This document shows, in pieces, positions 3,635-9,404 of a stretch of 64,000 nucleotides of DNA; the first letter of the stretch is position 1; each line of letters opens with the position of its first letter. The translations under genes were made by a program, and so were the position numbers. The notes under the pieces were generated by a model that had not been told where the DNA came from, did not search any database, and saw only the letters and a program-made list of their open reading frames with translations. The DNA comes from Inquilinus sp. KBS0705 (GTDB lineage: Bacteria; Bacteroidota; Bacteroidia; Sphingobacteriales; Sphingobacteriaceae): positions 1,798,001 through 1,862,000 of the forward strand of contig VCCI02000001.1 in NCBI GenBank assembly GCA_005938025.2. The letters run 5' to 3'.

Positions 3635-3647
3635 GTTAATATGCGCC

Positions 3648-3702
3648 GGTTCAAGCGTCCACGCTTGAACCCCCTAAAAAATGTAAGCGTCCACGCTTAC
3701 AT
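3648..3702. repeat. pair of REP-type hairpins upstream of the RAYT gene
   Basis: Two perfect palindromes: 3648-3671 with arms GGTTCAAGCGT/ACGCTTGAACC and a CC loop, and 3681-3702 with arms ATGTAAGCGT/ACGCTTACAT and a CC loop. They share the core AAGCGT-CC-ACGCTT. A second pair with the same AAGCG/CGCTT arms lies just after the transposase gene. This is the usual layout of a RAYT with its REP sequences. Confidence 0.9.
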
Positions 3703-3729
3703 AAAAAAATAAATTCCCATATTTATTTA

Positions 3730-4251
3730 ATGTCCCGAAACGCCTCAACAGACGAGTTATATTTTGTTACGCTAACAGTTGTAAACTGGATAGACGTTTT
3801 TACACGCAGGTTATATAATGATTTCATAGTACAGAGCTTAACCCATTGTCAGCAGCATAAAAAACTTAATATCTATGCTTATGTGATAATGACCAATCAC
3901 ATTCATTTGGTCGCCAATGTATCAGAAGGCTCGTTAGGTGATGTATTGAGAGATTTTAAAACTTTTACATCAAAAGAACTGGCCAAGCTGATAATGAATA
4001 ACGAGCAGGAAAGCCGCCGAAAGTGGATGATAAGTACCTTCAACTGGGCCGGCAAAATTAACCCTTTAAACACCAACCATCAATTTTGGCAAAACGGCAA
4101 TCATCCTATATTACTGTACAGCCCGGCCGTGATCGATCAAAAAATAGATTACATACATGAAAATCCTGTTAAAGCTGGTTTTGTAGGTTCGGCACATGAG
4201 TTTTGGTACAGCAGCGCGAATCCTGAAAGCCCTTTAAAAGTAATTGATTAA
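3730..4251 (+). CDS. REP-associated tyrosine transposase (RAYT, IS200/Y1 family)
   Basis: A 173-residue single-domain Y1 transposase. The HUH metal-binding motif is NHIHL (His57 and His59), and the catalytic tyrosine is probably Tyr141 in KIDYIHENPVKAGF. Such proteins nick REP hairpins as single strands and are generally domesticated, not self-mobile. The gene is bracketed by two REP hairpins on each side, and its stop codon overlaps the third hairpin. Length and motifs are complete, so it is probably functional. It sits between the aroB operon and the pheA operon, which suggests a later insertion. Alternative: the solo transposase of a decayed IS200 element, but the hairpins favour RAYT. Confidence 0.9.
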   Translation: MSRNASTDELYFVTLTVVNWIDVFTRRLYNDFIVQSLTHCQQHKKLNIYAYVIMTNHIHLVANVSEGSLGDVLRDFKTFTSKELAKLIMNNEQESRRKWMISTFNWAGKINPLNTNHQFWQNGNHPILLYSPAVIDQKIDYIHENPVKAGFVGSAHEFWYSSANPESPLKVID

Positions 4252-4304
4252 TGTAAGCGAGGACGCTTACATTCTTTTTACATCCAAGCGTTGACGCTTG
4301 GATG
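4251..4304. repeat. pair of REP-type hairpins downstream of the RAYT gene
   Basis: Palindrome 4251-4272 has arms ATGTAAGCG/CGCTTACAT with an AGGA loop; 4281-4304 has arms CATCCAAGCG/CGCTTGGATG with a TTGA loop. The stem sequences match those upstream of the gene, while the loops have changed from CC to four bases. The rest of the gap to the pheA promoter (4305-4418) is AT-rich and shows nothing else. Confidence 0.88.
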
Positions 4305-4418
4305 GGCGGATTAGGCATTTTCCTTTAACTTTTTGTTACCCCAAAGTAAGCAAACCGCACCTTTTACCCAATAATATTTTGTTAGCGTTATTTTTTTAAT
4401 AAAAAATAAAATTATCTA

Positions 4419-4448
4419 TTGACAAAATGATTTTTACTTGTACATTTA
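4419..4448 (+). promoter_or_regulatory. putative promoter of the attenuated pheA-aro operon
   Basis: A TTG at 4419-4421 and TACATTTA at 4441-4448 resemble the Bacteroidota -33 (TTTG) and -7 (TAnnTTTG, one mismatch) boxes with 19 bases between. Transcription would begin near 4455, about ten bases before the leader peptide ATG. Confidence 0.5.
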
Positions 4449-4464
4449 CGGCATAACAAAAACA

Positions 4465-4530
4465 ATGAACAATTCACGTGCATATTTTTATGGTTTCTAC
4501 TTTTACTTTACCAGTAAGAGCCGGGACTGA
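4465..4530 (+). CDS. Phe/Tyr-rich leader peptide of the pheA-aro attenuator
   Basis: A 21-codon reading frame begins MNNSRA, continues with YFYGFYFYF and ends TSKSRD. Eight of nine consecutive codons (4483-4509) are Phe (4) or Tyr (4). It lies directly upstream of an intrinsic terminator and of prephenate dehydratase, the Phe branch enzyme. Stalling of the ribosome on these codons when charged tRNA-Phe or tRNA-Tyr is scarce would decide whether the terminator forms. This small gene is read from the sequence; function follows from established attenuation logic in enterobacterial pheA and trp operons. Confidence 0.85.
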   Translation: MNNSRAYFYGFYFYFTSKSRD

Positions 4531-4590
4531 TATGTACTAACAAAACATACAAAAATAAAAAGTCCCGGCCTAATAAGCCGGGACTTTTTT
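4520..4590 (+). terminator. attenuator: intrinsic terminator with competing antiterminator arm
   Basis: AGTCCCGGC (4561-4569) pairs with GCCGGGACT (4577-4585), followed by six T: a strong terminator ending 11 bases before the pheA ATG. The same nine bases GCCGGGACT occur at 4520-4528, inside the last codons of the leader peptide gene, and can pair with 4561-4569 instead. A ribosome reaching the leader stop at 4528-4530 covers this copy and lets the terminator form. A ribosome stalled on the Phe/Tyr codons leaves it free and favours the antiterminator. Confidence 0.9.
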
Positions 4591-4601
4591 GCTTTAACAC
4601 A

Positions 4602-5507
4602 ATGATGAAAACCGAAAAACCAAGAGTTGCCATACAAGGCATACGCGCATCCTTCCACGAAGAGGCAGCGTTTAAGTATTTTGGCGAAAAAATACACACT
4701 GTTGAGTGCAACTCTTTTAAGCAAACATTTGAGGCGCTGCAAAACAACGATGCCGATTATGTGGTAATGGCTATTGAAAACAGCATTGCCGGCAGCATAC
4801 TGCCCAACTACTCGCTGATGATGAGCTACAGTTTTCCGGTGGTGGGCGAGGTTTATGTGCCCATACAACTGCACCTGATGGCTTTACCGGGTGTAAAGTT
4901 TGATGACATTAAATATGTAACATCGCACCCTATTGCCATACGCCAGTGCATCGATTTTTTTGACGAATACCCGCATCTAAAAATTGTTGAAAGCAACGAT
5001 ACCGCTGCCTGTGCAAAACGCATCCGCGATGAACAGCTTACAGATACCGTGGCCATTGCCAATACCCTGGCTGCTAACCTATACGGGCTGGATGTGCTGG
5101 AACGCCGGATAGAATCTAACAAAAAGAATTTTACCCGCTTTTTGATACTGACCAATCACGAAAACGCCAAAAAGAAAACCGGGGCCAACAAAGCATCACT
5201 ATGTTTCCAGGTGAGTAACCAGGTAGGCTCGTTAGCTAAGGTGCTAAACATATTTGCCCAGGAAAACATGAACATGAGTAAAATACAAAGCATGCCGGTA
5301 TTGGGCAAACGCAACGAATACAATTTTTACGTAGATGTTGAGTGGGATGATGCCCGCAACTACGATTCGGCCATAAGGCAAATATTAAAATATACGCACA
5401 ACTTTAACATTTTGGGCGAATACATAAGGCACGAAGAAGAGACTACCGCAAAGCCCTTAGTACCCGAAAAAACTAAAAGATATATAACGGTAAAGAAAAT
5501 AGAATAG
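4602..5507 (+). CDS. pheA: prephenate dehydratase
   Basis: Converts prephenate to phenylpyruvate, the committed step to phenylalanine. The 301-residue protein has a periplasmic-binding-like catalytic domain (about 8-185) ending in the NFTRF motif (Thr178-Phe180), whose threonine is essential in the family. A C-terminal ACT domain follows (about 196-275, GSLAKVLNIFAQENMNMSKIQSMP), which in relatives binds Phe for feedback inhibition. It has no fused chorismate mutase; that activity is in the next gene. Two ATGs (4602 and 4605) are equally good starts. It is the first structural gene after the Phe/Tyr attenuator. Confidence 0.95.
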   Translation: MMKTEKPRVAIQGIRASFHEEAAFKYFGEKIHTVECNSFKQTFEALQNNDADYVVMAIENSIAGSILPNYSLMMSYSFPVVGEVYVPIQLHLMALPGVKFDDIKYVTSHPIAIRQCIDFFDEYPHLKIVESNDTAACAKRIRDEQLTDTVAIANTLAANLYGLDVLERRIESNKKNFTRFLILTNHENAKKKTGANKASLCFQVSNQVGSLAKVLNIFAQENMNMSKIQSMPVLGKRNEYNFYVDVEWDDARNYDSAIRQILKYTHNFNILGEYIRHEEETTAKPLVPEKTKRYITVKKIE

Positions 5508-5673: not shown

Positions 5674-6804
5674 ATGAAACTTAATTTAAACATAGAACCC
5701 CTTAACAACTGGATAAACAAAACCGGTAAACAGCCCCTTGTAATTGCCGGCCCTTGCAGTGCCGAAACGGAGGACCAGTTAGTTGCCACCGCGCATTTAT
5801 TAGCTAAAACAGGTAAAATTAGCGCGCTGCGCGCTGGCATCTGGAAACCACGCACCCGCCCCGGAGAATTTGAAGGTATTGGCAGCATTGGTTTAGAGTG
5901 GTTAAACCGCGCTAAAGAAGAAACAGGTTTGCCAACCGCTGTTGAAGTAGCTACCGCTAAACACGTAGAAGAAGCTTTAAAAGCAGGTGTAGATATCCTT
6001 TGGGTAGGTGCACGCTCAACCGTTAACCCTTTTACTGTACAGGAAATTGCCGACGCGCTGCGTGGTGTGGATGTACCCGTAATGGTTAAAAACCCGGTTA
6101 ACCCCGATCTGTCTTTATGGGTTGGCGCTTTAGAGCGTATTAACAATGCCGGTATCACTAAGCTGGCGGCTATTCACCGCGGTTTTTCATCATACGAAAA
6201 ATCAGCTTTCCGTAACGAACCGATGTGGGACCTTGCCATCGGCCTGAAAACCCTTGCACCACATCTGCCTATTATTAACGACCCAAGCCACATTACCGGC
6301 AACCGCGACCTGATTGGTTACATATCGCAAAAGGCATTGGATCTGGATATGCAGGGCTTGATGATCGAATCACATATCGACCCTACCGTTGCCTGGACCG
6401 ATGCTGCACAGCAGGTTACCCCGGCTGCCTTAGCAAACATTATTGATAACCTGGCCCTACGCAAGCCCGAGGTTAAAGATGTGGTGTTGAATGATAAACT
6501 GCACGAACTGCGCAGCCAGATTGATAAAATTGACGACCTGGTTATCCAAAAAATGGCCGAGCGTATGCAGATAGTAGAGAAAATAGGCAACTACAAAAAG
6601 GATAACAACATTACCATTTTACAGGTTAACCGTTGGGACGAGATATTGCACAAACGTACCAGCTACGCCAAAGCTTTAAAACTAAGCACCGAGTTTACCG
6701 AAAAATTGCTTGAGCTGATGCACAGCGAATCTATCCGCAAGCAGACCGAGATAATGAACAAAAGCGAAGCAGGCCAGGCGGCAGAAAAATTAACACATGC
6801 GTAA
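5674..6804 (+). CDS. bifunctional DAHP synthase / chorismate mutase
   Basis: A fusion of the first shikimate enzyme with the branch-point enzyme. Residues about 15-265 form a DAHP/KDO8P-type synthase (IAGPCSAE, LRAGIWKPRTRPGEFEG, KNPVNPD, INDPSHITGNR, GLMIESHIDP). Residues about 278-360 are an AroQ chorismate mutase helix bundle (LRSQIDKIDDLVIQKMAERM, EKIGNYKK, NRWDEIL). The fused order synthase-mutase is typical of Bacteroidota, where the mutase domain may also serve allosteric control. It lies in the attenuated operon between pheA and aroA. The genes for prephenate dehydrogenase and an aromatic aminotransferase, often nearby in relatives, are not in this operon. Confidence 0.95.
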   Translation: MKLNLNIEPLNNWINKTGKQPLVIAGPCSAETEDQLVATAHLLAKTGKISALRAGIWKPRTRPGEFEGIGSIGLEWLNRAKEETGLPTAVEVATAKHVEEALKAGVDILWVGARSTVNPFTVQEIADALRGVDVPVMVKNPVNPDLSLWVGALERINNAGITKLAAIHRGFSSYEKSAFRNEPMWDLAIGLKTLAPHLPIINDPSHITGNRDLIGYISQKALDLDMQGLMIESHIDPTVAWTDAAQQVTPAALANIIDNLALRKPEVKDVVLNDKLHELRSQIDKIDDLVIQKMAERMQIVEKIGNYKKDNNITILQVNRWDEILHKRTSYAKALKLSTEFTEKLLELMHSESIRKQTEIMNKSEAGQAAEKLTHA

Positions 6805-6906: not shown

Positions 6907-8259
6907 ATGAAGCATAATATCATTATAAGTAAGCAAAGCAAAACGGTATCGGGCACGGTACAGCTCACCGGCTCAAAAAGCGAGTGCAACCGTGCATTGG
7001 TTATTGAGGCGCTGAGCGATGGCAAGGTAAAGGTTGAGAATATATCTGACGCGGCCGATACGGTTACTTTAGCAGCTATACTCAGGGAGTCGAAAGTTGA
7101 AAGCCCTAAAGTTGTTGTTGGTACAGATGAAGCACATGAAGTTGAAGAGATAGGGAACGAAATTGCAGACTCAAGACTTCAGACTCAAGACTCAAGACTT
7201 GTAAACATAGGCCCTGCCGGTACAGCTATGCGTTTTTTAACAGCATATTATGCCATAGGCCATCAGGAAATTATATTAACAGGCAGCGAGAGGATGAAGC
7301 AAAGGCCGATAGGGATATTGGTTGACGCGTTGCGAGGTTTGGGTGCCCATATTGAATATGAAGAAAATGAGGGGTACCCCCCTATCAAATTAAAAGGTAG
7401 TTTTGAGCAGCAAACTCGTAAGATCAGTATTAAGGGTAATATAAGCAGTCAGTATATTACTGCCCTGTTACTCATCGCTGCCAAACTGCCTTTTGGTTTG
7501 GACCTGCACATCGAAGGCGAGCTAACCTCGCGCCCGTATGTAGAAATGACGTTAGCTATGCTTAGGCAGGCAAATATACAGCACACCTGGGCCGATAATG
7601 TCATTTCCATATCACATCAGGATTTTGCAGATACATCGCTGCATGTGGAACCTGACTGGAGCGCGGCATCGTACTGGTATGCTATAGCCGCTTTAAGCGA
7701 TGAAGCCGAACTATTTTTACCCGGCCTTACCTCATACAGCTTGCAGGGCGATAGTGTAATAACCGAGATAATGGCCAACTTTGGCATCACATCACAGTTT
7801 AAGGATGGCGGCGTGTATTTAACCAAAGAGGTAAAGCCCATCTATCGTAAGATATTTGATATGAAGGAATGCCCCGACCTGGCACAAACCGTTGTTGTGG
7901 TTTGCGCCGTATTGGGCCACGACGCGACATTTACCGGGCTGGAAACCTTAAAAATTAAAGAAACCGACCGTATATTAGCCCTGCAAACCGAACTGGCAAA
8001 AATTGGCGTTAAGCTGATAGAAAAAGGGCAGGTTTATAAGCTGGATTGCAGCGAAAAGCAATTACCGCAACGGGTTTTTATCAACACCTACGACGACCAC
8101 CGTATGGCCATGGCTTTTGCGCCGCTGGCAACTGTGATACCCGAGGTGGAGATAGAAGATGCCGATGTGGTAGAAAAATCGTACCCGGCGTTTTGGCAAC
8201 ACCTGCAAAGTGTAGGGTTTGCCCCCCATCCCCCTGAAGGGGGAGCAAAAGTGCTTTAA
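6907..8259 (+). CDS. aroA: 3-phosphoshikimate 1-carboxyvinyltransferase (EPSP synthase)
   Basis: Joins shikimate 3-phosphate and PEP to give EPSP. The 450-residue protein has the family landmarks GSKSECNRALV (23-33), GPAGTAMRFLTA (loop 102-113), GNISSQYITALLL, SRPYVEMTLAML, a KETDR motif and YDDHRMAMAFA near the end. The PEP/glyphosate loop reads GPAGTAMRF: the usual Asn is Pro and the usual Pro after Arg is Phe. About twelve residues before the loop (ADSRLQTQDSRL) come from a GACTCAA microrepeat. The last residues (PHPPEGGAKVL) come from a CCCCCTGAAGGGGG palindrome, so repeats have entered the gene twice without breaking the frame. Cotranscribed with its neighbours. Confidence 0.95.
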   Translation: MKHNIIISKQSKTVSGTVQLTGSKSECNRALVIEALSDGKVKVENISDAADTVTLAAILRESKVESPKVVVGTDEAHEVEEIGNEIADSRLQTQDSRLVNIGPAGTAMRFLTAYYAIGHQEIILTGSERMKQRPIGILVDALRGLGAHIEYEENEGYPPIKLKGSFEQQTRKISIKGNISSQYITALLLIAAKLPFGLDLHIEGELTSRPYVEMTLAMLRQANIQHTWADNVISISHQDFADTSLHVEPDWSAASYWYAIAALSDEAELFLPGLTSYSLQGDSVITEIMANFGITSQFKDGGVYLTKEVKPIYRKIFDMKECPDLAQTVVVVCAVLGHDATFTGLETLKIKETDRILALQTELAKIGVKLIEKGQVYKLDCSEKQLPQRVFINTYDDHRMAMAFAPLATVIPEVEIEDADVVEKSYPAFWQHLQSVGFAPHPPEGGAKVL

Positions 8260-8312: not shown

Positions 8313-9404
8313 ATGGCAGGTAATTCATTCGGTCAATTATTCAGGATAACAACATTTGGCGAATCGCATGGCGAGGCTATTGGCGTAATTATCGACGGCT
8401 GCCCCGCGGGCTTAACGGTAGACCTGGATTACATACAGGGCGAGCTGGACAAGCGCAAACCGGGACAATCAAAAATTACCACCCAGCGTAAAGAGAGCGA
8501 CGAGTTCAGGATACTATCGGGCACGTTTGAAGGCAAAACCACCGGTACGCCTATCGCCATGATCATCCCTAACGAAGATCAGCGATCTAAAGATTACGGG
8601 CATAATGTAGATGTATTTCGCCCATCGCATGCCGATTACACCTACCAAACCAAATACGGCATTCGCGATCATCGTGGCGGCGGCCGTTCGTCTGCCCGCG
8701 AAACCGCGGCGCGCGTTGCAGCCGGGGCAATAGCCAAACTATTGCTAAAAACACAAGGCATTGAAATTGTTGCGCATGTAAGCAGCGTTGGCCGTATAGA
8801 TGCGCCGAACGTATTTATTGAGGATACCAACGAATTTATAGCCGAGCGCGAAAAAAACATTGTGCGTTGTGCCGACCCGGCCACTGCCGAAGAAATGATA
8901 GCCTTTATAGACGATATACGCAAACAAGGCGATACCGTTGGTGGCAAGGTTAGCTGCTATGTAAAAAACTGCCCTGTGGGCCTTGGAGACCCCGTGTTTG
9001 ATAAGCTGCATGCCGACTTAGGCAAGGCGATGCTAAGCATTAATGCTGTGCATGGTTTTGAATTTGGTTCGGGTTTTAGCGGCAGCGAGATGCGCGGATC
9101 GGAGCATAACGATATATTTATTAAAAACGCTGCCGGTGATGTAGGCACCCGTACCAATTTTTCGGGTGGTATACAAGGGGGCATCAGCAACGGTATGCCT
9201 ATTGAGTTTAAGGTGGCTTTTAAACCGGTTGCTACCATTATGCAAGCCCAGCAAACCATAAACAGCGAAGGTAACGCCGCCGAAATATCGGGCAAAGGCC
9301 GCCACGACCCATGTGTAGTACCCCGCGCCGTACCAATTGTTGAAGCGATGGCCGCCCTTGTTTTAGCAGACCACTGGCTACGTAACCGAAATTCAAAACT
9401 GTAG
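8313..9404 (+). CDS. aroC: chorismate synthase
   Basis: Last shikimate-pathway enzyme, forming chorismate from EPSP with reduced FMN. The 363-residue length is normal. Signatures are GESHGEAIG near the N-terminus (16-24), RPSHADYTY, and [22 protein letters not shown] (126-147), with a C-terminal [16 protein letters not shown]. It is the last gene of the attenuated pheA-aro operon. Its stop codon overlaps a GAGACGCAA palindrome that may act as the 3' hairpin of the transcript. Confidence 0.97.

Follow-up and report, generated by a model that had tools for sequence, protein, structure and literature searches.

What controls transcription into the pheA operon at this locus of a Mucilaginibacter, a soil bacterium? 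Between the upstream genes and pheA, the window (the whole 64,000-nt stretch of DNA that was analysed) holds a very short open reading frame crowded with Phe and Tyr codons, and after it a set of RNA segments that can pair in alternative ways. We consider it highly probable (roughly 0.9) that the element is a ribosome-mediated transcription attenuator of the pheA operon. Its features are collected in Table 1.

Table 1. Features of the pheA leader region and of the genes behind it, in window positions.
Feature	Position	Strand	Basis and remarks
Probable promoter, TTGACA + TACATTTA	4419..4448 (TTGACA 4419-4424, TACATTTA 4441-4448)	+	scan, 10/12 match
Leader peptide ORF MNNSRAYFYGFYFYFTSKSRD	4465..4530	+	ATG 4465; 21 codons + TGA 4528-4530
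Putative sensing run YFYGFYFYF	4483..4509	+	codons 7-15
1:2 hairpin, outer CATA:TATG helix + CTTTTACT:AGTAAGAG	4478..4537	+	fold; covariation
Antiterminator 5' arm GCCGGGACT	4520..4528	+	overlaps last leader codons and first stop base
Intrinsic terminator	4557..4590	+	13 bp in fold; 3' arm GCCGGGACT 4577-4585; U run to 4590
Shared arm AGTCCCGGC	4561..4569	+	antiterminator 3' arm = terminator 5' arm
pheA, prephenate dehydratase + ACT domain; first gene under the proposed control	4602..5507	+	Pfam PF00800; NCBIfam
DAHP synthase-chorismate mutase fusion (DAHPS/CM)	5674..6804	+	Pfam PF00793 + PF01817
aroA, EPSP synthase	6907..8259	+	Pfam PF00275
aroC, chorismate synthase	8313..9404	+	Pfam PF01264

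The leader peptide and its surroundings

A preliminary description had claimed a leader of 21 codons with eight Phe/Tyr codons among nine successive ones. The sequence bears this out: 21 amino acids precede the stop, and eight of the nine residues at codons 7-15 are Phe or Tyr (Y F Y G F Y F Y F). Among the 1064 short ATG-initiated ORFs of the window, this leader alone has more than 5 Phe/Tyr per 9 codons. Across the genome, the pattern TWY x5 (five Phe/Tyr-like codons in a row) matched 129 times, with no excess over the reversed pattern, and was rejected as a leader finder, being insufficient by itself. Runs of this kind are thus common in the genome, so that the run alone is weak evidence and its conservation is the real evidence. 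Of 123 pheA upstream regions, 98 have an ORF in which 7-9 out of nine codons are aromatic, coding for Phe, Tyr or Trp; none of 615 dinucleotide shuffles did so, nor did any of the 123 opposite strands. Across the 37 genomes of the genus (Mucilaginibacter), the leader peptide is among the most constrained parts of the element, and the differences observed in it either conserve its length or are in-frame (3-nt) changes.

The elements of the probable promoter, TTGACA...GTACATTTAC, are visibly conserved in most members of the genus. The site resembles TTG...TAnnTTTG, which we take to be the Bacteroidota consensus, and under the spacing that we assume for such promoters RNA would start some 10 nt upstream of the leader's start codon. 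This probable Bacteroidota-type promoter, together with the 1:2 hairpin, would complete the attenuator as a unit. Just upstream of the attenuator (3640-4310) lies an IS200/Y1-type transposase-like ORF (3730-4251; Pfam Y1_Tnp, 24.5 bits), around which are short palindromes, namely AAGCGTCCACGCTT (3653 and 3685), GTAAGCGAGGACGCTTAC (4253) and CCAAGCGTTGACGCTTGG (4284); together they resemble a REP-associated transposase and the repeats that belong to it.

Alternative RNA structures

The nonamer at the end of the leader had been said to recur as the 3' arm of the terminator, with its complement as the 5' arm, and AGTCCCGGC does complement both copies of GCCGGGACT exactly. Relative to shuffled sequences, the leader RNA folds with z = -6.4. 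In an alignment of 47 family sequences, 95.5% of the cells of the terminator were paired, with 5 pairs changed on both sides; as the aligned sequences are related, neither this nor the other covariation counts represent independent events. The antiterminator was paired in 92.4% of cells and scored above all 500 shuffles and all slides; the 1:2 hairpin was paired in 94.6%. Each of the three helices exceeded every slid version of itself both in cells paired and in covariation score. Antiterminator and terminator are mutually exclusive, and both covary. Among the other families of the class the arm sequences differ and still pair, own arms scoring a mean of 19.3 as compared with 12.7 for swapped partners.

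In the 1:2 hairpin, 8 sequences have U-A in place of a C-G pair: TAC has become TAT, a silent change, and AGT has become AAT. This compensating change indicates that the coding part is constrained as RNA as well. The two outermost pairs that the outer helix has in the window are not conserved, and six pairs are kept across the alignment. The hairpin is probably a pause or protector hairpin.

Geometry and the proposed mechanism

Between the last aromatic codon and the antiterminator arm lies a gap whose median is 10 nt in genus, family and class alike (sd 0.4, 1.4 and 3.2, respectively). Counted from the stop codon, the arm usually starts at -8 in family members, and anywhere from -31 to +7 in the class. 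A gap held at about 10 nt while the position of the stop remains free is what ribosome stalling requires. We simulated a ribosome by masking the RNA from 15 nt upstream to 12 nt downstream of the base that opens the A-site codon, a footprint of assumed size; under it the probability of the antiterminator was 0.96-0.98 at codons 7-15, 0.65 at codon 16 and 0 from codon 17 onwards, which makes the last Phe codon the final position that fully permits antitermination. In silico, a stalled ribosome leaves the arm free and finished translation covers it. At equilibrium the full-length RNA always preferred the terminator, and the switch must therefore be kinetic. When no ribosome at all was placed on the nascent RNA, the antiterminator formed with P 0.97, and the outcome for an untranslated leader is therefore not clearly predicted. 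The earlier proposal that ribosome position chooses between terminator and antiterminator is supported by the three covarying helices, the 10-nt gap and the mask simulations.

From these parts, with their conservation, covariation and geometry, we infer translation of the leader, stalling, termination and a response to both amino acids, in the following order. RNA polymerase would transcribe the leader, and the leader peptide would be translated at once, the 1:2 hairpin probably pausing the polymerase and letting the ribosome keep pace. If charged Phe-tRNA or Tyr-tRNA were scarce, the ribosome would stall within codons 7-15 and leave the upstream copy of GCCGGGACT free to pair with AGTCCCGGC. 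Formation of this antiterminator would preclude the terminator, and pheA-DAHPS/CM-aroA-aroC would be transcribed. If both tRNAs were plentiful, the ribosome would get to the stop codon and cover GCCGGGACT; AGTCCCGGC would then pair with its downstream partner at 4577-4585 and the terminator would form.

Distribution among relatives

A comparison of the same region in relatives had been proposed as a check, and the element proved to be widely kept in the family. All 37 genus genomes have leader, arms and terminator ahead of pheA. At the loci from other genera of the family, an aromatic leader and a terminator occur in 39 of 39 cases. Among other families of the class, 35 of 47 loci have a similar aromatic-rich leader. 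Among 80 Mucilaginibacter-type records, the full leader was present in 77, cut by a contig end with the rest visible in 2, and absent in 1. In Mucilaginibacter aurantiaciroseus (L180), the end of another gene lies some 55 nt ahead of pheA, and leader, arm and terminator are all missing; this locus is, judged by its sequence, a natural loss of the attenuator and a useful natural contrast. Absences of the leader cluster: seven are loci of one family, f12 (L038, L089, L091, L093 and L096-L098). The leader is also absent from two loci of genus g91 (L108, L122), where aroA lies directly upstream.

A covariance model built from the 47 family sequences found a single strong site in the organism's own genome, the one described here (117 bits, the next match reaching 40 bits). 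No second copy was found in that genome, and the three best of the weaker covariance matches were plain terminators. In 61 family genomes, strong matches lay just before pheA wherever coordinates could be compared. At two loci of the same family (L167, L168), a weak match to the model precedes an aspartokinase-like gene, where a Thr/Ile-rich leader, MIFNTSIITTIIITTG, is followed by a terminator. This is probably a Thr/Ile attenuator of the same design, and its occurrence in two relatives suggests that the family uses the design more widely.

What the leader senses

The operon order in the family is pheA, DAHPS/CM, aroA and usually aroC; elsewhere in the class it is mostly pheA, aminotransferase, tyrA, DAHPS/CM. 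The mixed Phe/Tyr leader occurs with both operon types, with and without tyrA. Within the aromatic run, Phe and Tyr account for fractions of 0.39 and 0.47 in the genus, 0.38 and 0.38 in the family, and 0.38 and 0.30 in the class. This nearly equal composition, held from genus to class, supports the preliminary suggestion that one leader would serve both end products. As the operon has no step specific to Tyr, the leader would sense Tyr on behalf of an operon whose enzymes serve the common trunk and the branch to Phe, and its composition agrees with a sensor that monitors the trunk's end products. Trp occurs inside the run in 3 of 37 genus, 21 of 39 family and 11 of 35 class leaders; the loci with a Trp codon there include L034, L036, L037 and many in the family, with runs such as AYWFGYYFYF and NAYWFFGYFYF. 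The Trp codons suggest a lineage-specific addition of Trp sensing.

The principal alternative is that the leader senses Phe only, as E. coli PheL does, and that Tyr is tolerated, either because the 1:2 hairpin requires TAC or because codons rich in U and A come easily. Codons 12-15 are indeed fixed as TAC TTT TAC TTT in the genus and lie inside the paired 5' arm of the hairpin, and the operon of the family contains pheA, of the Phe branch, and no Tyr-specific step. However, Tyr also stands at codons 7 and 9, which the conserved inner arm of the hairpin does not include, and it makes up 38-47% of the run in family and genus and still 30% in the other families of the class, which the hairpin alignment left out. 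We consider Phe-only sensing unlikely.

In a broader reading, the mixed leaders would form a class-wide, uncatalogued attenuator family of the Bacteroidota in which one leader reads the whole aromatic pool, made up of Phe, Tyr and, in many lineages, Trp, and sets chorismate flux, rather than there being one leader per amino acid. We offer this tentatively, at slightly less than even odds.

We also considered that Tyr might be made only from Phe, the operon having no tyrA and the genome a Phe hydroxylase-like gene. This idea was rejected, as a prephenate dehydrogenase-like ORF is present elsewhere. It encodes a protein of 419 aa (L046, G000:C4:203213-204469, minus strand) that matches bacterial models weakly (PF02153, 23 bits; NCBIfam below cut-off) and occurs in 34 of 37 genus genomes and, bar one marginal match, in 0 of 23 sampled other-family genomes. 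The protein resembles the long TYR1 type of fungi, and gene exchange is possible. No Phe/Tyr leader was found before this ORF. An aromatic amino acid hydroxylase is encoded at G000:C1:246.8-247.6 kb (L047; NCBIfam PRK14056, 797 bits) and represents a possible second route to tyrosine.

Other ways to use the terminator

The terminator might instead be constitutive, ending an upstream transcript or acting as a fixed brake on transcription, with a short ORF of no function. Its stem is nearly symmetric and could end transcription in both directions, and the terminator scan placed it on the minus strand only. A constitutive terminator would nevertheless leave little reason for reading frame, aromatic run, antiterminator arm and 10-nt gap to be maintained across the class, and we regard this explanation as very improbable. 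We give equally little credence to a different signal controlling this terminator, be it a riboswitch, a protein or tRNA binding of the T-box kind: the long 1:2 hairpin would be in keeping with one, but no Rfam family, T-box models included, reached its gathering score in a search of the region, and the leader peptide is one of the parts under the strongest constraint.

Comparison with known systems

The features that point to attenuation here are clustered cognate codons, an intrinsic terminator, an exclusive and covarying antiterminator and, in silico, the geometry of stalling. In the proteobacterial PheL attenuator, a Phe-rich leader peptide, alternative hairpins and an intrinsic terminator precede pheA; the E. 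coli peptide has Phe codons and is not known to contain Tyr codons. The present element is like PheL (RF01859, Phe_leader) in its codon-rich leader, its alternative hairpins and its terminator before pheA. It differs in that Phe and Tyr are about equal and that genes of the common chorismate trunk belong to the operon as well, and it scores 24.0 bits with the RF01859 model, below the gathering score of 55. With Bacteroid-trp (RF01692) it shares the use of a leader-peptide attenuator for an aromatic amino acid in Bacteroidota; that system, in contrast, belongs to the Trp operon and has Trp codons, and its model gave 19.5 bits here against a gathering score of 49, with no match in the genome.

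When we looked in the literature for accounts of Phe/Tyr leaders in Bacteroidota, a remark on Flavobacterium was all that came up, and subscription papers may contain more. In Flavobacterium psychrophilum, an expressed, structured 5' region without an Rfam hit precedes pheA, and its authors saw hints that leader peptides attenuate amino acid operons (PMC9723704). That element is likewise structured and from Bacteroidota, and is likened to ours by position and description, not homology; the part of its description that we consulted makes no mention of a Phe/Tyr leader (PMC9723704). In Acholeplasma, uORFC-13-1 is a short ORF with one or more Phe codons and a terminator before aroF, a DAHP synthase gene; unlike the present element, it belongs to another phylum, has another structure and involves Phe only (PMC8632094).

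Leader-peptide attenuation of aromatic biosynthesis would thereby extend to a large class of Bacteroidota, with, in Rfam terms, an unlisted cis-regulatory family. The analysis yields a covariance model and a geometric rule of about 10 nt from the last hungry codon to the antiterminator arm, and it points to a natural mixed sensor, in which one leader would integrate Phe, Tyr and sometimes Trp. The mechanism itself, as read from the aligned sequences, is that of the classical four-segment attenuator, already known, of which this element is a real and widespread new example.
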